Program-made: the position numbers and the translations under genes
The notes under the pieces: model-generated
Databases searched by the model: none
Told to the model about the DNA's origin: nothing
The model's input: only the letters and a program-made list of their open reading frames with translations
Part shown: piece after piece, positions 40,374 through 54,327 of the stretch
How positions within the stretch are numbered: the stretch's first letter is position 1
Layout of the letters: every line of letters begins with the position of its first letter
Assembly (NCBI GenBank): GCA_947573135.1
Contig: CANPDU010000016.1
Location: 1-64,000 of the forward strand
Direction of reading: 5' to 3'
DNA length: 64,000 bases
From: an uncultured Bacteroidales bacterium
GTDB taxonomy: Bacteria; Bacteroidota; Bacteroidia; Bacteroidales; Muribaculaceae

Positions 40374-41417
40374 ATGAATCGCCACAGAACAGCATTATGT
40401 ATGTTCGCTTTTTCTTTTTTAATCGCCTTGCCGGCGATGACGAGGGAAATTGCGATGCCAATTGAGTTATCTCCTCTCAAAGGGGACATTCTGCAGGCGC
40501 GGACATGGGATTTTTCGCAGCAATGGATGTCTGACGACAAAGCGCGGACTCTGATATCTGTTTATGGCGATTCTTTAATGGCCGAGACAATCGGAGGACG
40601 TCGGTACTGGTACGGCATAAGCGGTGATTCAATATTGTATCTAGGTGAAGAGGACCGTCTTACGACAATCACAGCAAGTAACCCGGTATATGTTGCGTCT
40701 TTGCCTTTACGATCCGGCGCCGGAAACGGCGGATATAAGTTTGATGCGTCGGGCACCGGCGGCGGCAAACGTTTTGCAATCAAAGAGAACGGCACACTTG
40801 AATTTATGAGTGCTCCGTGCGTCGGGACACTCATAATGACACCGGGGGATACGATCCGTAATGTGACTGTAACGCGGGAGCGCCGGTACACAGCCGCGAC
40901 ATTCCCCGATGACAGTGTTGCAGCTGAAACATATTTAACTACAGAAACTTATCGGTGGTACGACAGTGACGGAGCCTCATCGCTGCTTCCGCTTGCCGTT
41001 CAGAGATCGGTTTATGCTTCGGGAACTATTGCAGCCGATACTGCTCCGCTTTCGTCTTCGGCATATCTTCCCGACAGAGGAGCATGTGACAGAAGCGAAA
41101 AATCAGGCGATGAGCCATTCGATCATAATTCTGTTGATCCTGAAGCTGTCAGCGGCGCCCTTGACGGAGCGGATCTCAAATATGACGGCAGAAACGTGAC
41201 TGTCAGTATAGAAATGCCTGTTTCCGGGCTTAATATTTCTCTTGACATCATGGATGCCGCCGGTCGCCTTTATCTTCACAAGTCAGCAGAATCAAGCGGG
41301 TCAGCCGATGAAATTTCGCTTGATTGCTCATCATTGCGCTCCGGACAGTATATCGCGGCCATTGGGGTGGCGGGCTTTCCGGTTCAACCTAAAAAAGAAA
41401 TTATTATAATCCGCTGA
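40374..41417 (+). CDS. Exported protein with sorting-domain-like C-terminus, upstream of Rhs
   Basis: A 347-residue protein with a signal peptide (about 1-22, ending PAMTRE). The mid region has no recognised family. The last 75 residues have the pattern ISLDIMDAAGRLYLHK-(x)-LRSGQYIAAI-KKEIIIIR, resembling a type A sorting domain of type IX secretion. It starts the transcription unit that continues 2 bases later into the Rhs gene, so it may help export or display the Rhs protein, or have a related surface role. That link is inferred from gene order only. Confidence 0.6.
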   Translation: MNRHRTALCMFAFSFLIALPAMTREIAMPIELSPLKGDILQARTWDFSQQWMSDDKARTLISVYGDSLMAETIGGRRYWYGISGDSILYLGEEDRLTTITASNPVYVASLPLRSGAGNGGYKFDASGTGGGKRFAIKENGTLEFMSAPCVGTLIMTPGDTIRNVTVTRERRYTAATFPDDSVAAETYLTTETYRWYDSDGASSLLPLAVQRSVYASGTIAADTAPLSSSAYLPDRGACDRSEKSGDEPFDHNSVDPEAVSGALDGADLKYDGRNVTVSIEMPVSGLNISLDIMDAAGRLYLHKSAESSGSADEISLDCSSLRSGQYIAAIGVAGFPVQPKKEIIIIR

Positions 41418-41419
41418 CT

Positions 41420-44400
41420 ATGAAAAACTACAATATAATATCGCTGTTGCTCGCATTTGTGCTGTCTGTGCTGTCGGCGCAGGCGCAAGGTTCGTCAGGG
41501 CTGATGATATCGCCGCAGACCAACGAGATCATTCCGCCGACCCCGTCGAGCGCGCAGCAGATCCGCTATCAGAGTCCCCAGCCGGCACTGGCCACTGGCG
41601 CTGTCAACCTCTCGATACCGCTCTATACGATCGATGTCGAAGGGCTGCAAATACCGTTCACCCTCAATTATCACACCTCGGGCATCAAGCCGCTCGATGA
41701 TCCATTCCCATGCGGCTATGGATGGAGCCTGCAACCGGCATTAAGAATAGTACGAACTGTCAGAGGACGTCCTGACGAGCATTTTGATTATTGGGGAGAT
41801 AAGATTTCCCATATGGATTTAAGAGGAGATGCTCATGTCGGCTATGCTTGCATGGTTGCAGAACTGCAGCATCTAGGATCTTCTATTTCCGAAAGATACG
41901 ATCCTGAAAAGGATATATTTACCATTTCGCTTCCTTCGGGGACTTATACACGTGTGATGAAAAAGGAAGACAATGGAACGATCTCTTTTTTGGGGGGAGA
42001 ATGTGATAATGAGATAATTGTTACCTCATCCGGAACATTAGAAAATATTACAGTGACGGATGCCCAAGGCATAGTTTATCATTTTGGTGGTAATTTCGTA
42101 GAAATTCCCGAGCATGGGCCATTTGATGTAAAATTTTTTACAACTTCTTGGGGAATAAGAGAAATCGTATTGCCTTCAGGTCGTACAATCGATTTCGGCT
42201 GGTTGTATTTCTTTCATCCGGAAAAGAAAATATACGGCGGAGATTCCTACAACGATATGTTCAAAAATCTAAACAGACCTCTTCAATACGAGGATATTCG
42301 GTCTGATGCTATGTACGGACTCCCGAACAATCCGCGAGGCTCTTATCAAAAGCGGATGCATCTTTCCTCCGTCAATTTTCCCGGCGGAATTGTCGCATTT
42401 AACTATCAGGACACAACATTATCGTCATTTACAGTAATTGCAAAAAACGATACAGTGCACAAGATAGAGTTCTGCTTCGACAAAACAGAAAATAAGTTTC
42501 TGAAAGAGATACAAATCAGAGGAGAAGGAAAATACACTTTTGAGTATGACCCTCAGCGTTTCGATGGATCAAGGCTGTGGCATAGGCAGGATTGGTGGGG
42601 GTTCTATAATGGTAAGGAGCCTAAGCGTTTCCCAGGTGAGATCTGCCTAACTCCCTATCTTGAGCTTAATATAAATTCATTTTCAGGTAGCCCGACTACA
42701 ACAGACTGGATCGGTCATGCAGACCGGACCCCGGACGAAAATGCAATGAAAGCCGGAATACTTACTAAAGTCACGTATCCAACGGGAGGATCCAGCTGTT
42801 TTGAATATGAATCCCACCGGTTCCCTAAGATGAGGATTGATTCTGAGGGTAAAATTTCGGAAACAACTGATCCATGGCTGGAAATGGGCGGTGGTCTGAG
42901 AGTAATATCTGTTGCCACACTTTCTGAAAATAATGATACATTACAGTATAACACTTTCAGATATGATTCTGTAGTAGTAACTTCCGTACCTTCGGCTTCA
43001 ACATTCGTATCCAGCTGTTATGGCGTCGGATTAACTTCGTCAAACGGTGTAGTTTTGCCATTCGAATACCGGCATACGTTCGTTAGTCATGCATCTGATT
43101 ATATGATAAATCATATTGGAGAAACTGACATATGGTATTCAAAAGTAACAGAATTTTACCGAGAGGGAAAAATTGAATATAATTTCAATTGCATCAACCC
43201 ACCGAGCGAGGAAAAACGAGAATGTGGCACTTTATATCCCATTTCTTTGAATAATGTTTTTTCCAAGGGACCGATGCTTACAAAAAAGACAGTATTCAGA
43301 GAATGTAGTTCTGGTTACACACCGGTCGAGACTGTAAATTATTGTTATGAAAAAACGGGTTGGGACGCAATAGACAATTCTCATATCAGCCGTGTATTGT
43401 TACAAGGAGCGGAATATCTGTCATCTTCCCCTGACTTTACGGATGGTGAGAAATTCCAATACGCGGATTTAGTTGACAAGCCTAATAATAAAAGGTATAA
43501 ATACATCTCCATAGTCGTGCCCGACCACTTGATAAATGGGTCTACGCCATATCGCATTTCTTGCTATCCGCTCAACTTAATATCCGAGCGGCTGAAGTCG
43601 AAGACGGTGACGCGGCATCTCGAGAACGGCGATTTCTCGCAGACAGAAACTTATGAATACAAACCGGGCACCTCGATCATAACCTCGGTCGTGACCACGG
43701 TTCCCGGCGACAGCCGCGGAGAACGCATAGACCTCACCTATCCCTCGGCCTCGGGCACATCCGTCGAACGGTCGATGGTCAGCGACAATATCGTTTCCGT
43801 TCCGATACAGACACGCCGCACGTTCGGCGACGCCGTCACTACCGTCCGTCACCAGATGAAGCATTACGGCAACCGCGTCTACCGTCCGGAGAAAACATGG
43901 CTCAGACGCGGCGCAGCTACGGAATGGCTCGCCGGCGAATACGACTACGACAGTTTCGGCAACATACGCCAGTACCGCGGCGAGGACAGCGTCGTGACAA
44001 CATATCTGTGGGGCTACGGCGGCCTTTATCCCGTCTACCGCATCGACGGCGTCAGGTATGCACAGGCGGCAGCATACAGTTCCTCGCCCAATTTCACCAA
44101 CGGTTCAGCCGAGCTGGTAACACCGGCTCTGCCGGCCGGATGGCATGTGACCAAGGTATTGTGGAAACCTCTTGTCGGCATGGCGTCGCTGCGTCGCCCC
44201 GACGGGCTGACGACGACCTACGGCTACGACTCGGCCGGGCGCCTGATCAGGACGGCGATCGACGGCCACGGTCCGGTCGAGGGCTACAGCTATCACGTGC
44301 AGGATGACGGCCATAACTATATGACATCGGGCGTGTTCAAGTCGGCGACGGGTACCTCGGCGTCCATACGCGAAATAATCAATTACGACGGCCTCGGCCG

Positions 44401-47400
44401 CGAGTCGTCGCGACTGACCGTCGCTCCGAACCCGAATGAGGCTTTCGTGTCAGATTTCGGAGGCGGTATCTCAGCCGCGCGCTTTACACCGCCCCTGACC
44501 ATAAAGGACGGCGGCTATTATGCCGCTCTGACGCAGTACGACGCCATGGACAGGCCTTACCGCTCGTGGTCGCCCGTCCATGTCAACGGCAGACACCCTT
44601 CGGCGTCTGAGATCTCGACTGCCGCCCGCAGTCTTTACGGCACATCATACGCATATTCGACCACCTACTACGAAGCGTCGCCCCTTGCCGTCACCGCCGG
44701 ATCGCGTAAAGCCGGCAAGGAATGGCACGACGCCGACCGCCGGGTGACCGTGCGGCGTCTCGTCAACACCGTATCGGGCAATTATTCTTGCTACAACTAT
44801 AAGCCCTACAGCGCCACTCAGGTCCGTGGCGCGACAAACTATCCGGCCGGCACTCTGACCGTCGAGGAGATCACCGACGAGGAAGGCCACGTGACGATGA
44901 CCTTCACCGACCGCCGGGGTCTGACGGTCATGACACGCGAAGGCTGCGCCGGCGACTGGAACGACACACGCTATGTCTACAACGACTTCGGCGATCTGAC
45001 AAACGTGATACAGCCGCTTCAGACCTCGCGTACTGTTCCTGTTAAAGCGACGTTCAGCTATGAGTATGACGCCCGCGGCAGATGCGTGTCAAAGTCGCTG
45101 CCCGGCGGAGAGCCGACGCTCTGCCGCTACGACATCGGCGGGCGCCTTTTCGCTGAGCAGGACGGCAATCTGCGCGCTCAAGGCCGCTGGCTGTTCCATT
45201 TCTATGACCGACTGGGCCGCGAAGTGGTTCAGTCTCTGGCTTCAGCGACAGAGCAGACTGTCGGGAACATGCAGACGCTGTATATGACGGCAGCGCCGTC
45301 ATCGCGGCCGGTCACCGATGCCACCGGAGGTTACATCATTATCGGCGCGCCGACGAATTTCAACCTCACCGAACTCGCCGAAGCCCGTTATTATGACGAC
45401 TACGCGTCTGTGTCTTCCGTCGAGAGCGGATGGGCGTCATACACACCCCCGGCAGGCTTCCCGACGCCGCGGACAGATGCAAAAGGGCTGCTGACGGCCG
45501 TTCTCGCCGAAAAGCGGCTGACCGTCACCCACTACGATAACCTCGGCCGCGAGGTGCGCGTGGCCCGCGGATCATATATCGATTTCCCCGAAAACTGCCG
45601 TTTCACGCGCTACGACTACGAGGGCAAGCCCGTCGAGGAACGTTTTGTGACCGAATACGGCCTGTCGGCGCCCGAGCAGCGCATCACCCGGCGCTATTAC
45701 TCGTCGGGCCATCTCCGTGATGTCACGGTGAGACAGGGAGCCGACACGGCGCGCTTTGAGTACACCTACGACGATGCCGGCCGCATATCCGAAACACTGC
45801 TTTCAGGGCGTATCACGCGGACATTCGGCTATAACGCCAACGGATGGCTCACCTCGTCGTCGGCTACGGTCGTGCGGTCAGGACTGCCGCCGGTGATACA
45901 GCTCGGCGAGACGGGCGGCGCGCAGCGCGCCTCATCGCTGACACCGACCTACACGGCGACCATTTTCAACGAGAAGCTCCACTACGCCGAAAGCGGCAGC
46001 GGCAGCACGGCGCGCTACGACGGCAAGATATCGGGGCGCACACGCGACGGCCGCCACACCGCTTACAGCTACGACAGCCACGGCCGGCTGTCGGCCTCGA
46101 CATCAGGAAGCTCGGGACCCATAAGCCTTAAGGATGCGCCCGACTTCTCGACCGAATACACCTACGACCGCAACGCCAATATCAAAACTATGATGCGGCG
46201 CGGCATCGTCGACATCGTAGGCGGCAAGAACGTCTACGGGGTTCAGAGCGACCTGACGATGACCTACACCCTCAACCGGCTCACCAAAATGGAGGCCGAC
46301 AGCGAGGGCGCCGACTATGAGGGGCGCACCGGTGTGAGCGCCTCGGGCACCGTCACAGGCTTTACATACGACTCCAACGGCAACCTCACGGCCGATCCAT
46401 CGCGCGGCATACTTCAGATAAAATACAACCGCCTCAATCAGCCGACCGACGTCTACCTGACGGGCGGTCAGCGGCAGCATATCACCTATGACGGACTCGG
46501 CGGCAAGCTTTCGGTGGAGTACTCGCAGGTTCCCGAAGCCATGCTTACGTCGCCCGAGACCGTATATTCCGACAGCGAGTATAAGCTGCAGTCGCGGCGG
46601 TCGTATGTCGGGCCGCACGTGTTCCGCGACGGCAAGCTCGAATACTCGGCATTCGCCGGGGGCTACTTCGATCCTCAGGGCGGCACGATGTACTATCTGA
46701 CCGACTGGCAGGGCAACAATGCCGTCGTGGCCGACAACCGGGGCAACGTAGTTCAGGAGACGACCTATTATCCCTACGGCGAGCCGACGATAGAGCCGAC
46801 CGGTCAGCGCTATCTCTTCGGCGGCAAGGAACGCGAGCATGCCGGCGGCCGCAACGCCTATGACTTCGGCGCCCGCATCCTCACCCCCTACGGCTGTTGG
46901 TCGACCCCCGACCCGCTCGCAGAAAAATTCTATTCCATATCCCCATATTCCTACTGCGGCGGCGATCCGATTAACAGAGTGGATGAAGACGGAAAGGATA
47001 TTTACGAGTTTAACAGTAAAGGGGCATTAGTCAATATCATCAAAGAGCTGCGCTATGATCTGGTTAGTATAACCACGCCGTCAGGACGCATACAGGAATG
47101 TGTGTTTGAATATGGCACAATATATGGCATTAAAAAAATTGACTCTCAGAGAGCTCCCGAAAGCTATTACTTTAAAGTAAAAGGTGTTGAAAATAGCGAT
47201 GATATATACATGATGTTAGCGACCAATACCAGTTCTGAATGGGGTTTAGTCAGATCAGAAAATAAAATAACAGGAGCAATCGAAAATTATATCGGGACAT
47301 CACAATTAGAGGATGCAGAACTTACTGGAATACGTATTATGAAGAGAGTTATGAATCCTGAGACAGAAATTCTGAGAAGATGTATACACAGTCATCCTAA

Positions 47401-47611
47401 TAATTCTATGCCATCAGGATGTCCGGAAAGCAGGCGCCCCAATGAAGGAGACATTCCTACGGCAAGGGTGGTTCAAGAGCTATATCCATATTTCGACAAT
47501 TTCGAAGTGCTTAGAGTAAGATCCTTAAGAATCGATCGATATAACAAGGATTCTCATGTATACGATTTTGAAAATTACCCCAAAGAATATTTATCAGACG
47601 ATATAAGATGA
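41420..47611 (+). CDS. Full-length exported Rhs/YD-repeat protein with C-terminal JAB-like toxin domain
   Basis: A 2063-residue protein. It has a signal peptide (1-22, ending AQAQ), an N-terminal SpvB/Rhs-like beta domain, many YD-type repeats (about 770-1790, e.g. YDSAGRLIRT) and the Rhs core RYLFGGKEREHAGGRNAYD up to GGDPINRVDEDG (about residue 1795-1860). The tip (about 1860-2063) has the JAB/MPN metal motif HSHP with a downstream Ser and Asp (NEGDIPTAR), a predicted metallo-peptidase or isopeptidase. Base composition is mosaic: GC-rich repeats, but AT-rich at about 41725-43575 and in the tip. The next gene overlaps by 4 bases and is the candidate immunity gene. Confidence 0.9.
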   Translation: MKNYNIISLLLAFVLSVLSAQAQGSSGLMISPQTNEIIPPTPSSAQQIRYQSPQPALATGAVNLSIPLYTIDVEGLQIPFTLNYHTSGIKPLDDPFPCGYGWSLQPALRIVRTVRGRPDEHFDYWGDKISHMDLRGDAHVGYACMVAELQHLGSSISERYDPEKDIFTISLPSGTYTRVMKKEDNGTISFLGGECDNEIIVTSSGTLENITVTDAQGIVYHFGGNFVEIPEHGPFDVKFFTTSWGIREIVLPSGRTIDFGWLYFFHPEKKIYGGDSYNDMFKNLNRPLQYEDIRSDAMYGLPNNPRGSYQKRMHLSSVNFPGGIVAFNYQDTTLSSFTVIAKNDTVHKIEFCFDKTENKFLKEIQIRGEGKYTFEYDPQRFDGSRLWHRQDWWGFYNGKEPKRFPGEICLTPYLELNINSFSGSPTTTDWIGHADRTPDENAMKAGILTKVTYPTGGSSCFEYESHRFPKMRIDSEGKISETTDPWLEMGGGLRVISVATLSENNDTLQYNTFRYDSVVVTSVPSASTFVSSCYGVGLTSSNGVVLPFEYRHTFVSHASDYMINHIGETDIWYSKVTEFYREGKIEYNFNCINPPSEEKRECGTLYPISLNNVFSKGPMLTKKTVFRECSSGYTPVETVNYCYEKTGWDAIDNSHISRVLLQGAEYLSSSPDFTDGEKFQYADLVDKPNNKRYKYISIVVPDHLINGSTPYRISCYPLNLISERLKSKTVTRHLENGDFSQTETYEYKPGTSIITSVVTTVPGDSRGERIDLTYPSASGTSVERSMVSDNIVSVPIQTRRTFGDAVTTVRHQMKHYGNRVYRPEKTWLRRGAATEWLAGEYDYDSFGNIRQYRGEDSVVTTYLWGYGGLYPVYRIDGVRYAQAAAYSSSPNFTNGSAELVTPALPAGWHVTKVLWKPLVGMASLRRPDGLTTTYGYDSAGRLIRTAIDGHGPVEGYSYHVQDDGHNYMTSGVFKSATGTSASIREIINYDGLGRESSRLTVAPNPNEAFVSDFGGGISAARFTPPLTIKDGGYYAALTQYDAMDRPYRSWSPVHVNGRHPSASEISTAARSLYGTSYAYSTTYYEASPLAVTAGSRKAGKEWHDADRRVTVRRLVNTVSGNYSCYNYKPYSATQVRGATNYPAGTLTVEEITDEEGHVTMTFTDRRGLTVMTREGCAGDWNDTRYVYNDFGDLTNVIQPLQTSRTVPVKATFSYEYDARGRCVSKSLPGGEPTLCRYDIGGRLFAEQDGNLRAQGRWLFHFYDRLGREVVQSLASATEQTVGNMQTLYMTAAPSSRPVTDATGGYIIIGAPTNFNLTELAEARYYDDYASVSSVESGWASYTPPAGFPTPRTDAKGLLTAVLAEKRLTVTHYDNLGREVRVARGSYIDFPENCRFTRYDYEGKPVEERFVTEYGLSAPEQRITRRYYSSGHLRDVTVRQGADTARFEYTYDDAGRISETLLSGRITRTFGYNANGWLTSSSATVVRSGLPPVIQLGETGGAQRASSLTPTYTATIFNEKLHYAESGSGSTARYDGKISGRTRDGRHTAYSYDSHGRLSASTSGSSGPISLKDAPDFSTEYTYDRNANIKTMMRRGIVDIVGGKNVYGVQSDLTMTYTLNRLTKMEADSEGADYEGRTGVSASGTVTGFTYDSNGNLTADPSRGILQIKYNRLNQPTDVYLTGGQRQHITYDGLGGKLSVEYSQVPEAMLTSPETVYSDSEYKLQSRRSYVGPHVFRDGKLEYSAFAGGYFDPQGGTMYYLTDWQGNNAVVADNRGNVVQETTYYPYGEPTIEPTGQRYLFGGKEREHAGGRNAYDFGARILTPYGCWSTPDPLAEKFYSISPYSYCGGDPINRVDEDGKDIYEFNSKGALVNIIKELRYDLVSITTPSGRIQECVFEYGTIYGIKKIDSQRAPESYYFKVKGVENSDDIYMMLATNTSSEWGLVRSENKITGAIENYIGTSQLEDAELTGIRIMKRVMNPETEILRRCIHSHPNNSMPSGCPESRRPNEGDIPTARVVQELYPYFDNFEVLRVRSLRIDRYNKDSHVYDFENYPKEYLSDDIR
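46802..46993 (+). repeat. Rhs core direct repeat, type A, copy 1
   Basis: About 190 bases encoding GQRYLFGGKEREHAGG through GGDPINRVDEDG. It is nearly identical to 48466-48657 (offset 1664) and in the same relative reading frame in both genes. Crossing over would fuse the metzincin-like tip to the full-length Rhs body. Confidence 0.85.
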
Positions 47612-48171
47612 AACAAATTTTTATAATTACAGTATGGTCAATTGCCGTTGCGTGTGTTATTCCGTCAAAAGCTTCCGAGCCTGACGTCAGGATCCAAATT
47701 ATGGCAGATCTAACGGACTCGATCAAGATAGCCGACCGGCCTGATATTGCAAAGCCATACATTGATGATGATATATATTTAAGAGATACGACATATAATC
47801 TTAATCTGCCGTTGGTTATCATAAAAAATAAAAAACTGAAGGATAAGCTGTCGAATTTTATAATGAACGATAAAATGGATTTTAGACATACTCAATATTT
47901 ATATTTAGAACAAGAAACGTCCTACTCGAGAAAAGACAAAGGAAAAGTATACTCTTTATGGGAATTAGCGCCTAATAGTAATTGTTCATTAAATATCGGC
48001 AAATATTCAGTCGGATATTGTCAAATTGATTCGATATTTGTTATAATCGATGAATCAGCCAAATCAAAGGTAAAGATGGTCAAAGGCTATAATAAAGACT
48101 TTAGTATAAAAGTATGTATTTATAAACCCCCATATTTTACCGAACCAAGAATGATTCATACAGATAAATAG
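47608..48171 (+). CDS. Candidate immunity protein for the first Rhs tip (exported)
   Basis: A 187-residue protein with a signal peptide (about 1-22, KASEP after it), no recognised family. It overlaps the Rhs stop codon by 4 bases and shares the low GC of the tip, the usual arrangement of an immunity gene in polymorphic toxin loci. The signal peptide would place it in the periplasm, where an imported JAB-type peptidase would first be met. The role is inferred from position. Confidence 0.55.
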   Translation: MKQIFIITVWSIAVACVIPSKASEPDVRIQIMADLTDSIKIADRPDIAKPYIDDDIYLRDTTYNLNLPLVIIKNKKLKDKLSNFIMNDKMDFRHTQYLYLEQETSYSRKDKGKVYSLWELAPNSNCSLNIGKYSVGYCQIDSIFVIIDESAKSKVKMVKGYNKDFSIKVCIYKPPYFTEPRMIHTDK

Positions 48172-48285
48172 ATTTCTGATCTATCATTATTTTTGACTGC
48201 GATAGACCGTATCGCGTTAGATGATACTATATGTTAAAACAGCTGAAATATGAATCGATGGCAAATATTGAATTCTTAATTTATT

Positions 48286-48302
48286 AGTTTACTGTGTAAA
48301 CT
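48286..48302. promoter_or_regulatory. 17-bp perfect palindrome upstream of orphan Rhs module 1
   Basis: AGTTTAC-TGT-GTAAACT, ending 16 bases before the ATG at 48319. It could be an operator or a short mRNA hairpin near the start codon. Confidence 0.4.
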
Positions 48303-48318
48303 GAATATATATTTACAA

Positions 48319-49269
48319 ATGATTTTGAACGCATTTCGTATCATATCGGTTGCATTGTGTGCTTTATTGTCAGTGCTGACAATGAGCGGCAATATTGCGC
48401 TGCGGGGTAACTGCTTCTATGCGGACGCACGGGTCGTGCGTCCCTACCTTGTGGATGATCTTGTGGGTCAGCGCTATCTCTTCGGCGGAAAGGAACGCGA
48501 GCATGCCGGCGGACGAAACGCCTACGACTTCGGCGCCCGCATCCTCACCCCCTACGGCAGCTGGTCGGCTCCCGACCCGCTCGCCCGGAAATTCTATCCG
48601 CTCTCCCCATACTCCTACTGCGGCGGCGACCCGATTAACAGAGTTGATCAAGATGGGAAAAAATGGATCGTCACAGAAGAAGTTACTTCTGATGGCCAAA
48701 GTATACGTTTATGTATTACCGGAGTAGTAATCAATGCAAGTTCATCAGCCATTGATTTATCCGAATTAGCGATAAAAATAATTGAACAATTACAGGACGT
48801 TTATACTTTTACTTCAGACGATTTAAATGTAACAATGACAGCGGAGATTAGAGTTGCTAAATCAGCGGATGATATATCTCCTGACGATCATATTTTTGCG
48901 GTCGTAGATCAAGATAAGCTAAAAACGAATAGTCTTGCTCGTACATTTTATAATGGGAATGAAATTGAAGTAGGAACAATTGTTGCGAATCAGACATTGA
49001 CTGATGAAAATACGCGAACCATCTCGCATGAGGTTGGACATTCGGGTGGATTACATGATACAAATTTGGATAAGAATACATTACCAATAAAGTATAATGA
49101 TATCAATTTGATGACTCAGATAGCTGCACTCCAAAATAAAGAGGAAAAAAATTCAGCTATTTTTCTCGAACCGATTCAAATAAATCAGATTGTGAACAAT
49201 TACAAGACTGGGAAATTAAATAAATTTAGATCGAACCGTTTTAAATATAGTTATTCATTATATCGTTAA
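48319..49269 (+). CDS. Orphan Rhs module 1: signal peptide, core fragment, metzincin-like tip
   Basis: A 316-residue protein. A signal-peptide-like start (1-26), about 22 residues encoded by a palindromic element, then a type A Rhs core fragment (about 49-113) and a protease tip. The tip has the zinc motif HEVGHSGGLHD (HExxHxxGxxH) and, 20 residues on, a Met-turn-like NLMTQ, both hallmarks of metzincin metalloproteases. It lacks the long repeat body. It may be secreted by itself or serve as a recombination donor for the Rhs gene upstream. The lipoprotein gene that follows is the immunity candidate. Confidence 0.8.
   Translation: MILNAFRIISVALCALLSVLTMSGNIALRGNCFYADARVVRPYLVDDLVGQRYLFGGKEREHAGGRNAYDFGARILTPYGSWSAPDPLARKFYPLSPYSYCGGDPINRVDQDGKKWIVTEEVTSDGQSIRLCITGVVINASSSAIDLSELAIKIIEQLQDVYTFTSDDLNVTMTAEIRVAKSADDISPDDHIFAVVDQDKLKTNSLARTFYNGNEIEVGTIVANQTLTDENTRTISHEVGHSGGLHDTNLDKNTLPIKYNDINLMTQIAALQNKEEKNSAIFLEPIQINQIVNNYKTGKLNKFRSNRFKYSYSLYR
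48423..48443. repeat. REP-like palindrome inside orphan Rhs module 1
   Basis: GGACGCACG-GGT-CGTGCGTCC, perfect 9-bp arms. It lies in frame between the signal peptide and the Rhs core and encodes ADARVVRPY. Similar GGACGCACG palindromes are, from recall, dispersed in Bacteroidetes genomes; no second copy was noticed in this window. Confidence 0.6.
48466..48657 (+). repeat. Rhs core direct repeat, type A, copy 2
   Basis: Partner of 46802-46993. It encodes GQRYLFGGKEREHAGG through GGDPINRVDQDG. Homology starts abruptly at the Gly-Gln codons and ends at the DG codons, the usual toxin-tip boundary. Confidence 0.85.
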
Positions 49270-49282
49270 AAAATAAAATTTA

Positions 49283-49843
49283 ATGAGGATATATATTATC
49301 ATTCCCATTTTGTTTTTTCTGACATCGTGCTCATCCAGTCGTAAAAACGATACTCCTGAAAGGGAGATTAATGACATACACGAGCGAGGAACTTGGGTCA
49401 GCATTAAAGATGCTAATGGCGAGAACGGCTACTGCCTTTTTGAAGACAGAGTATTCGGACTGGATATAGGGATACGCGATACTGCTGAATTATACTATTG
49501 GATAAAAGAATTACAGCCATTAACTCCCATTTCCGGAGCTGACGCTGAAACTTTTGAGATTTGTATTAACGCTGATTATGAGCCATATGCCAGAGACAGG
49601 CATAAAGTTTATTACCATGACCTTGGGGTGACAGAATTCTTTGATGGAGAGGAGATAGGGGGAGAGATATATCGTGGAGATTTTTCCATAAATGGCGCTG
49701 ATCCCCAAACTTTTAAATATATAGGATCTGGTTATGCCGTTGATAAATACAATATGTATTATGAAGGGCAGAAAACACTATGGAATGAAACTATGATTAA
49801 GCTGTTAAATTGTAAGCCAACGGCAATACAAACGGCTCCTTAA
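49283..49843 (+). CDS. Lipoprotein with DKNYY-like repeats, candidate immunity protein
   Basis: A 186-residue protein whose lipobox LTSC places the lipidated Cys at about residue 16. Segments YARDRHKVYYHD and YAVDKYNMYYEG match the repeat style of the DKNYY family (from recall). It follows orphan module 1 by 13 bases. Lipidation suggests membrane-anchored protection in the periplasm against the protease tip; unproven. Confidence 0.55.
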   Translation: MRIYIIIPILFFLTSCSSSRKNDTPEREINDIHERGTWVSIKDANGENGYCLFEDRVFGLDIGIRDTAELYYWIKELQPLTPISGADAETFEICINADYEPYARDRHKVYYHDLGVTEFFDGEEIGGEIYRGDFSINGADPQTFKYIGSGYAVDKYNMYYEGQKTLWNETMIKLLNCKPTAIQTAP

Positions 49844-49879
49844 CATATCAAAGTAAAAGTCAATCTAATTTTATACAAA

Positions 49880-50293
49880 ATGAGAAAATTACTATTTTAT
49901 ATAGCAGCAGTTTTGTTTATCGCCTGTTCTTCAACACGCGATATCAGCAACAATAATGTCAATAAGGAAATCGCTTCGCAGTTCAAGATTAAGAAGATTA
50001 AATGGTTTAGAAATCAATTCATTATATATGCAACACGCAATGATTCCACCTTCAAAATTGTTAGCAATATAAAACATACATCTGTTTCAGATAGTGATGA
50101 AATTAGAGTCGGTAAATATTACAGTTTAGACTTGGAAAAATATTATCCTCGAGATTCTCTGTTTGGGATGAGTGTGATGCCAAATTTAGGGATAAAATAT
50201 GTTAACTATATAGAAGTAGAAGAAAAATGCCACTATTCGCTTTATTACGCAAAGAACATGAACGGGTTATATATCGAAAACAGCACGGAATGA
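49880..50293 (+). CDS. Small lipoprotein of unknown family
   Basis: A 137-residue protein with a lipobox IACS (lipidated Cys about residue 16). It is lysine- and tyrosine-rich, with no recognised domain. It lies between the DKNYY-like lipoprotein and orphan module 2 and could be a second immunity protein or the remaining immunity gene of a lost tip. The low GC matches the other tip/immunity genes. Confidence 0.5.
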   Translation: MRKLLFYIAAVLFIACSSTRDISNNNVNKEIASQFKIKKIKWFRNQFIIYATRNDSTFKIVSNIKHTSVSDSDEIRVGKYYSLDLEKYYPRDSLFGMSVMPNLGIKYVNYIEVEEKCHYSLYYAKNMNGLYIENSTE

Positions 50294-50295
50294 TT

Positions 50296-50303
50296 TATCT
50301 TTG
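50296..50303 (+). promoter_or_regulatory. -7 box before orphan Rhs module 2
   Basis: A perfect TATCTTTG box. The next ATG (50313) is only 10 bases away, so a transcript from here would be leaderless or nearly so. Confidence 0.4.
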
Positions 50304-50312
50304 CAATTGGTT

Positions 50313-51515
50313 ATGAAATACTTTCGCGGCACATCGGTTGTTTATGCTGGCTTGTTGACTGGACGCGCAGCGAGCGGTAGTGTGACGCGCGATGACAACC
50401 GCGGCATAAGCTCGATAGAATATAATGCGCTTGGGCTGCCGTCACGGATATCTGTAGGCTCAGGCTCTTCGATAGAATATATCTACAGCGCCGACGGAAC
50501 TAAACTCGGGAGCCGATATACCGAAGGGCGCGCCGCAAGCTATGCCTTAGAGGCAAAACAACAGGAACAGTCGGCGCAGCCTTACGCCTATATTTCTGAA
50601 GATTACGACTACATAGGCTGCTATGAATTCCGTAACCGCAACCTCTTTCGCGTCAACACGCCCTACGGCTACTATCTTGCCGGGGAGTTCACGCCGTATA
50701 TGCGCGACTATCAGGGTAACAACCGCAACGAAGCAGGCTATTACGCCTATGGACTGCCGACATCAGACAGCGATGTCAAATCATACGATCCCTACCTTTA
50801 CGGCGACAAAATGCTGTACACCCTCAAGGGCCTCAACATCTACGACTTACTTGCACGGACTTACGCCCCCGACATAGCGCGCTTCATGCAGCCCGACCCC
50901 AAAGCCGGCGACTACCACTGGCTTTCACCCTACGCCTACTGCGGCGGCGACCCGATAAACTTTGTAGATCCGGACGGACAAGTCCTATATACTACATACA
51001 ATGGCGTTAATTATTCATGGGAATATAGGAACGGGAAATGGGGCTTTTATAATTCCAGTGGAAATCTTTTTGACGGAGATGATTCGTTTATTACAAATCT
51101 GGCTTCAAGTCTTGAAACTCTTTTGTCGGGAGAAACAGGGAAATCATTAGTTACAGAATTAGTCAATTCTAAAAAGTTTATTAAACTAAAGGACGGAAGT
51201 AAACTGAAAGGGGATATAAAAACAGGAGCCAATGACGATCTGACTAACATCTATATGAATTATAATGATCCTGTTGGAGCAATGACAACAGAAGGTATGG
51301 ACTTCAATTCAACCATGAACCTTGCCCATGAATTGGCTCATGTTCAATTAGGCAAAAAATATGATGAACAATGGGACTTAACTGCTGACGGTTCTGAAAT
51401 TAGTTTAGGTCAAGTAGATAAGTCTGAGTTATATGCAACTCACGTTGAAAATAAAATCAGAGCAGAGCAAAATGCTCCTCTCAGAACCTATTATGGATAT
51501 GATAAAAAAAGATGA
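50313..51515 (+). CDS. Orphan Rhs module 2: type B core with M91-like metalloprotease tip
   Basis: A 400-residue fragment without signal peptide. Residues about 22-215 are a type B Rhs core (DYIGCYEFRNRNLFRV, LARTYAPDIARFMQPDP, GGDPINFVDPDG). The tip has NLAHELAHVQLG (HExxH) and a later glutamate in ATHVENKIRAEQNAPLRTYYG, resembling peptidase family M91 effectors. An ORF extension to TTG at 50301 is possible. It overlaps a 40-codon ORF by ATGA. Without signal peptide or body it may be silent and act as a donor cassette. Confidence 0.75.
   Translation: MKYFRGTSVVYAGLLTGRAASGSVTRDDNRGISSIEYNALGLPSRISVGSGSSIEYIYSADGTKLGSRYTEGRAASYALEAKQQEQSAQPYAYISEDYDYIGCYEFRNRNLFRVNTPYGYYLAGEFTPYMRDYQGNNRNEAGYYAYGLPTSDSDVKSYDPYLYGDKMLYTLKGLNIYDLLARTYAPDIARFMQPDPKAGDYHWLSPYAYCGGDPINFVDPDGQVLYTTYNGVNYSWEYRNGKWGFYNSSGNLFDGDDSFITNLASSLETLLSGETGKSLVTELVNSKKFIKLKDGSKLKGDIKTGANDDLTNIYMNYNDPVGAMTTEGMDFNSTMNLAHELAHVQLGKKYDEQWDLTADGSEISLGQVDKSELYATHVENKIRAEQNAPLRTYYGYDKKR
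50381..50903 (+). repeat. Rhs core direct repeat, type B, copy 1
   Basis: About 520 bases almost identical to 52363-52885 (offset 1982), both read in the same frame. The core encoded is different from type A, so orphans 2 and 3 derive from another Rhs parent. Confidence 0.88.
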
Positions 51516-51634
51516 TACCGACAGGAAGAATAATAGATCAGTCAGGAAAATCAAGTTTATACTATGATGAAAACGAAAATTTGATATTTCCCCTGAACAA
51601 ACATTCATTTACCCCTTATATATATTTGCCATGA
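51512..51634 (+). CDS. 40-residue ORF coupled on both sides by ATGA overlaps
   Basis: ATG at 51512 overlaps the stop codon of orphan module 2, and its own TGA (51632-51634) overlaps the ATG of the next gene at 51631. The product starts MIPTGRIIDQSG, is rich in Asn/Tyr, has no cysteine and no signal peptide, and ends YIYLP. Both overlaps are the 4-base kind that signals translational coupling, so it is unlikely to be chance. It may be a tiny immunity protein, an adaptor, or the trace of a reading-frame change. Not recognised. Confidence 0.5.
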   Translation: MIPTGRIIDQSGKSSLYYDENENLIFPLNKHSFTPYIYLP

Positions 51635-52263
51635 GATATTTAATTATTATTGTAACAGCTACTATGATATTGAGTACCTACGCGTTCAGCACGGCTAAAG
51701 AGAACATTCATCTGCCCGACAGCTGTGTATATTACGCTCCTGTTTATGATGCAGATTCATTCAAAAATTTCGACAAGAAGAGAGAGAAACTGGAACAGTG
51801 GACAATAGAGGGGACTACTCATGTACTTTCCGTACTTGATTCATTTAAACTCTTGAACCACGCGTCTGATACCATTGTCGAAGCGTTTTTTGAGCCGTTC
51901 AACTGCCAGCCTTTTTCGTTTCTGAAGACGAGTAAAGGCACTGTTCTCGAATGCTATTCAAGATGCGAACCATCTTCGTATACATTTTCACCCGGTCCAG
52001 TAGACTTTGAATTTTGTTTTGTTAAGAATCCGGTGGAACGTTTTGGCCCCGGGGTTATCGATCACCCTGATTCCGTCCTGCTGTCGATAATATATCGATG
52101 GGATCTTGATACCGTAGCCGATTTCTTCAGATATGGCATGGCCAAGAGATTTTCTTTAAATGCTTTCAGATATATATTGCACGATAATGCGGTGGTTGAT
52201 ATTCAGCGATTTATGGGGTTGAATCAACTATACGGCCGAATCGTTGTGAATTGTCCCTGGTAG
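51631..52263 (+). CDS. Exported protein, candidate immunity for the M91-like tip
   Basis: A 210-residue protein with a signal peptide (about 1-21), five cysteines including FNCQPF and LECYSRCEPS, no recognised family. It follows the M91-like orphan through the 40-codon ORF, all overlapping by 4 bases. Its location and export signal fit an immunity protein; no direct evidence. Confidence 0.5.
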   Translation: MRYLIIIVTATMILSTYAFSTAKENIHLPDSCVYYAPVYDADSFKNFDKKREKLEQWTIEGTTHVLSVLDSFKLLNHASDTIVEAFFEPFNCQPFSFLKTSKGTVLECYSRCEPSSYTFSPGPVDFEFCFVKNPVERFGPGVIDHPDSVLLSIIYRWDLDTVADFFRYGMAKRFSLNAFRYILHDNAVVDIQRFMGLNQLYGRIVVNCPW

Positions 52264-52288
52264 CAATGTGGAATACTCTGAATGAGAT

Positions 52289-53584
52289 ATGATATTCCGA
52301 TACCGCAACTTCATATACGACGGAGCTGACAACCGTGAATACGCCTACGATTCCAACGGCAATGTGACGCGCGATGACAACCGCGGCATAAGCTCGATAG
52401 AATATAATGCGCTCGGGCTGCCGTCACGGATATCTGTCGGTTCAGGCTCTTCAATAGAATATATCTACAGCGCCGACGGAATTAAACTCGGAAGCCGATA
52501 TACCGAAGGGCGCGCCGCAAGCTATGCCTTACAGGCAGAACAAACGGAACAGTCGGCGCAGCCTTACGCCTACATCTCTGAAGATTACGACTACATAGGC
52601 TGCTATGAATTCCGTAACCGCAACCTCTTTCGCGTCAACACGCCCTACGGCTACTATCTTGCCGGGGAGTTCACGCCGTATATGCGCGACTATCAGGGTA
52701 ACAACCGCAACGAAGCAGGCTATTACGCCTATGGACTGCCGGCATCCGACAGCGACGTCAAATCATACGATCCCTACCTCTATGGCGACAAAATGCTGTA
52801 CACCCTCAAAGGCCTCAACATCTACGACTTCCTTGCCCGAACCTATGCCCCCGACATAGCGCGTTTCATGCAACCCGATCCGTTAGCAACAGAAAACCAC
52901 GGTGTATCACCATACATTTATTGTCTCAGCGATCCGATTAATTTCATCGATCCTACGGGTGAAAAGGTCTATTATGTCGATATGACAGGAAGATTAATTT
53001 CTTCGGAAGAAGCCGGGACGTACAATTCTTTAAACATGAAAGAGGTTGAGGCTCAATACGAGGGTCTTGACGTAGTCCTAATCATCGATAAAGACGGCAA
53101 AATTATAAACCAATCCGAGACTTTCGAAGAAGGGACAATCAATGGAACCCTGAGTTTTCCTACCGATTTACCGTTTTGTGGAGACTTCAAATCCATCTTC
53201 ACGCTTTTTACCGTAAATGGCGACGACAATGCAAAATCAATCTTTCAATTTTTGTCAGATAATATTACGGCAACTTCCGGTATTGAATTCGGATTGAATC
53301 TTATGGGGGAATCTGCAGACGGATCTGTAAATGATATTTTTACGGGACATACCGTAGCAAAGTTAGCTCATGTTGATAAGCTATGGCTATTTCGTTATTT
53401 AATGGGAGAAATATTTAGGGAATTTGATCATTCTCACAAAGAGAGTTCTAAGCCGAGCCCAGCAGATAAAAAGTTTGCCAGGGTGGTTTCTAATCAATTA
53501 TTTTTTAAACAGGATTATATTCCTTTATTTAATATTTATATGTCAGCGACAGGACAATATAGATCATATAATGGATTTCAATAA
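52289..53584 (+). CDS. Orphan Rhs module 3: type B core with JAB-like tip
   Basis: A 431-residue fragment without signal peptide. It starts in a YD repeat (NREYAYDSNGNVTRDD) and continues through a type B core to LSDPINFIDPTG (about residue 230). The tip has FDHSHKESSKPSPADKKFA. The HxH and S-x-x-D of the JAB/JAMM motif are recognisable, though the spacing is one residue shorter than canonical (HxH-x6-S-x2-D). It is more complete upstream than orphan 2. The exported protein gene following after 29 bases is its immunity candidate. Confidence 0.7.
   Translation: MIFRYRNFIYDGADNREYAYDSNGNVTRDDNRGISSIEYNALGLPSRISVGSGSSIEYIYSADGIKLGSRYTEGRAASYALQAEQTEQSAQPYAYISEDYDYIGCYEFRNRNLFRVNTPYGYYLAGEFTPYMRDYQGNNRNEAGYYAYGLPASDSDVKSYDPYLYGDKMLYTLKGLNIYDFLARTYAPDIARFMQPDPLATENHGVSPYIYCLSDPINFIDPTGEKVYYVDMTGRLISSEEAGTYNSLNMKEVEAQYEGLDVVLIIDKDGKIINQSETFEEGTINGTLSFPTDLPFCGDFKSIFTLFTVNGDDNAKSIFQFLSDNITATSGIEFGLNLMGESADGSVNDIFTGHTVAKLAHVDKLWLFRYLMGEIFREFDHSHKESSKPSPADKKFARVVSNQLFFKQDYIPLFNIYMSATGQYRSYNGFQ
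52363..52885 (+). repeat. Rhs core direct repeat, type B, copy 2
   Basis: Partner of 50381-50903. Identity is high until the QPDP codons and then lost, which marks the beginning of the variable tip region. Confidence 0.88.
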
Positions 53585-53613
53585 TTTTTATAACCAATTT
53601 AAACTATATTGAA

Positions 53614-54327
53614 ATGCTGAATGCTGTTTTTATTTTTCTTTCGTTCTATATTATGAATGTTGGAAACGCGACGAGTGAACCGGTAAAAATGGTGAATTTA
53701 GAATATGTTATGTCCAAAGCAGAAACTATGTTTAATGTGCAATATGGTTGCCGGCAAATGCAGCTGATGGACTCTATAACGGATTATATTTATAAGACAT
53801 CGGAATGCTTTCCCAAAGACAATCTTATTAAGCAGATAACCCAACGGCCTCTGACTATAACTGTTCATAAATTGAATAGAAGGGATTACACTTACGAAGA
53901 GACTTTCTTGGGCAAAAAATGTCAGTTCTATTCTAACGGTTCCTACTATATCCGCATCAGTTTTGGAGAGTATATGGTGACAAATTTGTATGGTTTTAAG
54001 TACAATGGCCTTAATTTTGTATCGCCATGTTTTCTACAGGGTTTTTATACAACGATTAATGATTTAGTGTTAACTGGAATAACACATCTCCCCGACGATA
54101 TCGACGAAACAGGGCTTTTTTATGACTGGAGATTTGTAGTACGTGACGGGAATATAAGCACGGCATATTGCTGCTCCTTAGAAAGTTTTAAGACTTTCGA
54201 TATAAAGAAAAGGTATGAAATCGGAGGCGCAAGCTTTTTCAGACTGCTTCCACAACCGGCAAGAGAAAAAGAAGAATACGAACCGGACGATTGGATTATG
54301 GATGCGGATTTTTTAGTTCAGCAGTGA
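53614..54327 (+). CDS. Exported protein, candidate immunity for the third orphan tip
   Basis: A 237-residue protein with a signal peptide-like start (hydrophobic 4-19), AT-rich coding, six cysteines, no recognised family. It follows orphan module 3 on the same strand and ends the accessory region. By analogy with the neighbouring pairs it may protect against the JAB-like tip. Confidence 0.45.
   Translation: MLNAVFIFLSFYIMNVGNATSEPVKMVNLEYVMSKAETMFNVQYGCRQMQLMDSITDYIYKTSECFPKDNLIKQITQRPLTITVHKLNRRDYTYEETFLGKKCQFYSNGSYYIRISFGEYMVTNLYGFKYNGLNFVSPCFLQGFYTTINDLVLTGITHLPDDIDETGLFYDWRFVVRDGNISTAYCCSLESFKTFDIKKRYEIGGASFFRLLPQPAREKEEYEPDDWIMDADFLVQQ

Follow-up and report, generated by a model that had tools for sequence, protein, structure and literature searches.

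In this study, we examined a 64,000-nucleotide stretch of DNA, referred to here as the window (positions 1 to 64,000 of contig CANPDU010000016.1 in assembly GCA_947573135.1, from an uncultured Bacteroidales bacterium of the family Muribaculaceae), and within it a locus of Rhs genes at positions 40374 to 54327. The locus contains one full-length Rhs gene (41420 to 47611, 2063 amino acids [aa]) and three short open reading frames (ORFs) with Rhs core sequence, which start at 48319, 50301, and 52289. Each of these four Rhs ORFs ends in a different tip, directly after the core motif, and behind each tip lie one or two small genes. An Rhs core, a variable tip, and a small partner gene are accompanied here by extra cassettes of a core fragment and a tip.

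All of the features are encoded on the plus strand. The first, gene A (40374 to 41417, 347 aa), has a signal peptide and a weak C-terminal domain resembling a type A sorting domain of the type IX secretion system (T9SS); its stop lies 2 nucleotides (nt) before the Rhs gene. The carrier part of that gene (41420 to 46993) has a signal peptide and RHS repeats, and its core ends in DPINRVDEDG. Tip 1 follows (46994 to 47611; Toxin-JAB1, with tip residues E82, H132, H134, S141, and D153), and its stop overlaps by 4 nt the start of i1 (47608 to 48171), a putative immunity gene called exported by a crude signal and lipobox rule. The T2 leader (48319 to 48663) has its own signal-peptide-like start, followed by the last part of an Rhs core, and leads into the metzincin-like tip 2 (48664 to 49269; HEVGHSGGLHD...NLMTQ). 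Next come i2a (49283 to 49843), which encodes a DKNYY-family lipoprotein (PF13644, 46.2 bits) and is the putative immunity gene for tip 2, and, between i2a and T3, a second small gene, i2b (49880 to 50293). The i2b product was called a lipoprotein by reading rather than by the export rule, has no Pfam match, and is possibly the product of a spare immunity gene. Core fragments T3 (50301 to 50981) and T4 (52289 to 52960) belong to a second core type, and no signal peptide was seen in either. The former is continued by the Peptidase_M91-like tip 3 (50982 to 51515), with HELAH plus a downstream Glu, and by its exported, putative immunity partner i3 (51631 to 52263), a homolog of which lies beside an M91 tip on contig C21. 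The latter is continued by tip 4 (52961 to 53584; Toxin-JAB1, HSHK...PSPAD) and its putative immunity partner i4 (53614 to 54327), which received a crude export call. Neither i1 nor i4 matches a Pfam family at an E value of ≤0.01.

The two core types, that of the carrier and T2 and that of T3 and T4, are intermixed at the locus. The core end of T2 repeats that of the carrier over 194 nt with 89% identity, T3 and T4 share 95% identity in their cores over 300 nt, and at the protein level both of these cores are 36 to 37% identical to that of the carrier. The G+C content drops from 51 to 56% in the cores to 33 to 37% in the tips, and the change falls at the core motif. Two core types and such a change in composition between core and tip are usual for a polymorphic toxin array with displaced cassettes.

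An initial annotation, made by motif, had proposed four variable tips after Rhs cores, which the layout bears out, and had called tips 1 and 4 JAB-like, tip 3 M91-like (HExxH with a downstream Glu), and tip 2 metzincin-like. In the profile hidden Markov model search that it had suggested, tips 1, 3, and 4 scored above the cut-off of the expected family: tips 1 and 4 matched Toxin-JAB1 (PF15659) at 36 and 39.9 bits (cut-off, 21), and tip 3 matched Peptidase_M91 (PF14891) at 45 bits (cut-off, 25). Tip 2 stayed below, its best Pfam matches being sub-threshold (Reprolysin_2, 15.7 bits versus 27). Residues of the JAMM site are conserved in the JAB1 cluster of 20 tips (HxH in 20/20, D in 20/20, E in 19/20, and S in 15/20). 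The M91 cluster has HExxH in 14/14 members and a downstream Glu at two candidate columns (9/14 and 11/14); it is a single-linkage cluster, and for at least one of its tips (L153) the match is to matrixin-like models, not to M91. The JAB1 and M91 profiles had no significant match in the PDB, and AlphaFold2 models of tips 4 and 1, made from the window sequences, had a mean predicted local distance difference test (pLDDT) score of 41.0, too low for use. The M91 tip on contig C21 (L083:7744-8451) is 98% identical to tip 3 over their common part; it is longer, its C-terminal end differs, and its partner ORF lacks a leader.

For tip 2, a candidate Met-turn and a weak likeness to metzincins were seen, but the HExxHxxGxxH motif first reported reads HExxHxxGxxD. 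A search of 297 family genomes returned two homologs besides tip 2 itself (L269 and L270, 42% and 36% identity), one of them within a long, 1974-aa Rhs frame. Both have HExxHxxGxxHP, and an N-x-M-T-Q Met-turn candidate is common to all three; genes homologous to i2a (E values of 9e-17 and 1e-11) lie directly behind both. The best PDB matches of profile A4 are zincins (E values of 0.006 to 0.01), driven by the motif, and the AlphaFold2 model of tip 2 alone had a mean pLDDT of 38.5. The metzincin assignment is likely but, because the profile scores fall below the cut-off, not established.

An Rhs core match was present in 68 of 149 genomes of the Muribaculaceae. The 152 match rows (150 matches listed in the family search plus two from the genome of the window) gave 138 tips of at least 80 aa, after 14 rows with shorter tips were dropped; tip boundaries were set by profile coordinates (extraction by regular expression gave only 42 frames). 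Among these tips Pfam recognized 20 Toxin-JAB1 and 14 M91 domains and smaller numbers of DUF4347, PLA2-like, AHH, matrixin-like, lipase, M23, and CHAP domains, the PLA2-like match of L091 scoring below its cut-off; here and below, the Pfam tallies are based on an E threshold of either 0.01 or 1 instead of the curated cut-offs and cover at most 25 families. HExxH occurs in 34/138 tips, compared with a mean of 0.9 after shuffling, and in 0/124 partner genes. Together, the metallo classes, as defined by cluster and motif (JAB1, JAB-like, M91, and other HExxH), account for 60 of the 138 tips. On contigs with at least two tips, all tips were metallo in 4/22 cases, among which only the contig of the window has four tips. 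A separate group, cluster 2, comprises 10 tips, with an Asn-Cys motif in the three that were inspected and small membrane protein partners in 7/8 scored cases; one member (L173:7612-8151) has no Pfam match. Members of cluster 2 may be cysteine enzymes whose immunity proteins reside in the membrane.

The main finding concerns the partner genes, and the comparison of predicted proteins argues for a rule that links metallo tips to exported partners. The partner was taken as the next gene behind a tip with a stop, chosen by length and distance, and was called exported by a crude, home-made rule (a hydrophobic stretch near the start, a lipobox, and no later membrane segment). By this rule, 52 of 55 partners of metallo tips in the family have a signal peptide or lipobox (19/19 in the JAB1 cluster, 4/4 JAB-like, 11/13 in the M91 cluster, and 18/19 other HExxH); three metallo tips had no next gene. 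Partners were also called exported for HExxxH (9/9) and HExxE (4/4) tips and for 0/4 HNH tips, which score above cut-off as AHH (three) and GHH (one). Unclassified tips had 7 exported, 9 membrane, 10 cytosolic, and 3 unscored partners. In the window, all four scored partners (i1, i2a, i3, and i4) carry export signals. The background rate of such calls was 11/41 for window ORFs and 162/517 for ORFs of the fetched loci. Among the metallo tips there are three exceptions: the near-copy of the window M91 tip, whose partner ORF has no leader; a partner whose start, by reading, was perhaps called late; and a tip with its nearest ORF, of 73 aa, at a distance of 208 nt. Exported partners next to metallo tips support action in the envelope.

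A largely similar pattern was seen in other families of the order. Of 147 listed matches entered (one match from the genome of the window and two with an in-frame stop were omitted), 90 lay in fetched stretches, and 84 tips were left once short tips and rows from the Muribaculaceae were dropped. Partners were exported for 5/5 JAB1 and 8/8 HExxH tips, a set of 17 tips of which 4 had no next gene, for 0/1 AHH tips, and for 1/4 tips with only the HxH..D motif; the remaining tips had 34 exported, 12 membrane, and 13 cytosolic partners, and 3 lacked a next gene. When tips were grouped by partner, the 135 beside exported genes included 26 JAB1, 12 M91, and one Ntox23 domain, with further matches to CHAP, M23, NlpC/P60, LysM, lipase, and, weakly, PLA2-like families; AHH, GHH, URI, and ribonuclease domains were not among the 25 of 43 families shown. 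The 33 tips beside cytosolic genes included four AHH domains and one each of GHH, Ntox8, Ntox17, URI2, ribonuclease, M91, and matrixin-like domains, but no JAB1. Ntox17 is a nucleic-acid toxin, and the AHH, GHH, URI2, ribonuclease, Ntox8, and Ntox17 families make up as many as nine of the 33. The grouped scan covered the tips with exported and with cytosolic partners; a further 33 tips lie beside membrane proteins.

The pairing of partners and tips is also tip specific. Homologous partner pairs lie beside the same tip cluster in 28/28 cases, some of which stem from closely related loci, and 2000 shuffles reach at most 6. For window genes i2a and i3, homologs were located next to tips of the same type; none were found for i1 and i4 in the family-wide partner comparison. 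We scanned 66 of 68 eligible partner proteins of metallo tips: one matches DKNYY, one weakly matches a beta-propeller model (E value of 0.0086), and the other 64 have no Pfam family at an E value of ≤0.01. These 64 thus offer a reservoir of proteins that may inhibit envelope hydrolases.

A sister locus on contig C5 of the same genome separates the influence of the carrier from that of the tip. Its carrier has the same signal peptide as that of the window, and the core ends are 93% identical; however, its tip is an AHH nuclease, and the partner has no export signal. An orphan tip at this locus (L155:5308-6000) is a CHAP domain (30.9 bits versus 26) with a lipoprotein-type partner. It follows that partner compartment tracks the tip, not the carrier. 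These results alter the significance that the initial annotation attached to a set of tips composed only of peptidases. As a peculiarity of the locus, the set was rejected: with 60/138 family tips in the same metallo classes, the chance of drawing four of four is about 3%, and the bias belongs to the lineage. Nor is a common protein target implied, since CHAP, M23, NlpC, and lipase domains likewise occur among the tips with exported partners. The suggested extracytoplasmic proteolysis is supported (exported partners in 52/55 cases in the family and 13/13 in other families of the order), but an envelope-only route is not, because the C5 AHH tip sits on a like carrier.

The gene upstream of the carrier bears on delivery. 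Of 40 ORFs upstream of carriers, 34 were long enough for a gene A search, and 16 of these (gene A included) matched at an E value of ≤0.01, 14 of them strongly. Their alignment shows a common N-terminal domain and a C-terminal LPxGxYI...K pattern, and at a named Muribaculaceae locus (L009) a gene 50% identical to gene A precedes the Rhs gene. At an E value of ≤1, TIGR04183 was found in 13 and PF18962 in 12 of 37 upstream ORFs; RHS repeats in 7 of the 37 probably mark pieces of split carriers. At its end, over some 80 positions, profile A3 matches numerous further large ORFs, wherever within them the match may lie. Of the 36 long A3 matches considered, Rhs comes next in 23 (14 of these served for profile building) and not in 8, and 5 lie at a contig end. 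Rhs is next in only 9/17 matches of the independent set, and gene A as a strict Rhs partner was therefore rejected. By coordinates, 4 of the 8 matches not followed by Rhs lie ≤5 kb downstream of an Rhs tip. Diverged relatives of gene A (L252, L260, L263, and L265) were seen downstream of Rhs tips and not upstream of a carrier. Gene A had no significant PDB match, the whole carrier matched no PDB sequence, and the first 660 aa of the carrier have no Pfam match; among carriers of at least 900 aa, 34/40 have a hydrophobic, signal-like start. A scan of the genome contigs yielded two relatives. Delivery by the type VI secretion system (T6SS) was rejected for this genome, which has no TssC (PF17541) or VipB (PF05943) match; in the family, TssC was found in 4/149 genomes and VipB in 0/149.

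On balance, we consider it probable that the locus is a polymorphic Rhs array with envelope-acting zinc peptidase tips and exported, neutralizing partners. It would comprise one Sec-exported carrier and three stored tip-immunity cassettes, with the conserved core end as the putative site of exchange. The tips would be zinc peptidases acting in the envelope of competitors, each presumably neutralized by the exported lipoprotein or periplasmic protein encoded right behind it, and export of the carrier may proceed through the T9SS, with the gene A product as its sorting partner. Several points weigh against this explanation. The export calls depend on the crude rule and on a rule-based choice of the next gene and its start, and tips outside the family defined only by the HxH..D motif had exported partners in 1/4 cases (two were cytosolic and one membrane). 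In tip 2, Asp takes the place of the third His seen in the homologs. The match of gene A to PF18962 (18.8 bits) is below the cut-off of 27, no sorting domain was seen in the carrier itself, and T9SS export is proposed from the adjacency of the two genes. SprA, a T9SS component, is present in 144/149 family genomes, including this one, and being nearly universal it discriminates little. Finally, T3 and T4, in which signal peptides are missing, may serve as silent stores.

The last point leads to a quite improbable alternative, in which the array is largely inactive. The missing signal peptides of T3 and T4 and the Asp for His in tip 2 would fit this reading, but all of the ORFs are open, the partners have been kept, and an intact carrier ends in tip 1. 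The tips might instead be aimed at host or dietary proteins, with the neighboring genes protecting the envelope of the producer during export. The M91 and metzincin families include host-directed enzymes, and the nearest named relatives are metagenome-assembled genomes from deer rectum and caecum. However, cognate pairs such as the 28/28 found here, arrays of spare cassettes, and sharp breaks in G+C content are usual in interbacterial polymorphic toxins, and CHAP, M23, and nuclease tips also occur on such carriers or cassettes; we regard a host or dietary target as improbable. It is also conceivable, although rather doubtful, that exported tips attack peptidoglycan and lipids besides proteins and that JAB1 cuts an isopeptide-type bond in peptidoglycan, not in protein. 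The CHAP, M23, NlpC/P60, LysM, lipase, and weak PLA2-like tips with exported partners are consistent with this idea, as is the phage lambda tail protein K, which combines JAB and NlpC/P60 domains, but the M91 and metzincin relatives are protein peptidases.

According to an alternative already in print, the JAB domains of toxins could be RadC-like nucleases (Zhang et al. 2012, PMC3482391); the exported partner would then only guard the envelope of the producer or have some other role. The best PDB match of the JAB1 profile is indeed a RadC homolog, from the clade on which that proposal was based, although it is nonsignificant (E value of 0.35), and this too counts against the main explanation. 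Nevertheless, recognized nuclease tips have partners without export signals (HNH, 0/4), JAB1 partners were all called exported (19/19 in the family and 5/5 in the order), and the C5 carrier, with the same signal peptide, pairs its AHH tip with a cytosolic-type partner. We therefore think a nuclease unlikely, and the pattern of predicted compartments favors reading Toxin-JAB1 as an extracytoplasmic hydrolase. The relevant passages of Zhang et al. describe RHS proteins with Tox-JAB-1 and Imm65, from Bacteroidetes only, with export by the type II secretion system or Sec, and list a signal peptide and lipobox for Imm65 (PMC3482391). The locus resembles these proteins in having a JAB tip on an RHS carrier. 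It differs from them, as far as those passages go, in that a nuclease action was proposed there, the export rule reported here also covers M91 and other HExxH tips, and the 66 partners scanned here match no Pfam immunity family at an E value of ≤0.01. In the openly licensed literature, we found neither a role for a JAB toxin as an extracytoplasmic isopeptidase or peptidoglycan hydrolase nor, judging from titles and the starts of abstracts, a paper that connects the chemistry of Bacteroidales Rhs tips with the compartment of their immunity proteins.

If the rule holds, sequence alone suffices to predict the compartment of a toxin from that of its partner, and the question of a nuclease or a peptidase role for the JAB1 toxins of Bacteroidetes receives an answer that can be tested. 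The results also point to a weapon independent of the T6SS in this gut family, few of whose genomes match TssC. As a tentative extension, which we would sooner doubt than assert, Muribaculaceae and other Bacteroidales may deploy Rhs proteins via the T9SS with the gene A family, with an arsenal made up mainly of envelope zinc hydrolases and with JAB1, an extracytoplasmic isopeptidase or peptidoglycan hydrolase, as the commonest warhead.

An association between Rhs genes and the T9SS has been described in Apibacter (Steele and Moran 2021). In those Flavobacteria, Rhs genes adjoin genes with T9SS type A sorting domains, as at the locus described here, and the T9SS rather than the T6SS was proposed for export (PMC8125069). 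For the Apibacter proteins, SpvB and TcdB N-terminal domains were reported, unlike the carrier in the window, and the passages concerned draw no link between tip chemistry and immunity compartment (PMC8125069). Likewise, the TANFOR polymorphic toxins of Bacteroidetes are described as having signal peptides and T9SS cargo genes nearby; unlike the locus in the window, they have a TANFOR N-terminal domain, and the characterized toxin domain, BaCT, is a DNase (Jana et al. 2020, PMC7073777). Rhs does not occur in PMC10994853. Based on the Apibacter and TANFOR cases, an association of Rhs proteins or toxins with the T9SS is known in kind; the addition made here is the Rhs-T9SS association in Muribaculaceae, in which gene A represents a family of its own. 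An Rhs core with a polymorphic C-terminal tip is also found in the PAAR-bearing Rhs effectors of the T6SS. Unlike these effectors, the carrier has a signal peptide and no Pfam match in its first 660 aa, and its genome lacks a TssC match. The T2 orphan opens with a signal-peptide-like sequence (48319 to 48420), as do, among others, orphans on contigs C6 of genome G000, C21 of G005, and C237 of G116; with such starts of their own, short core-tip proteins might be exported alone.

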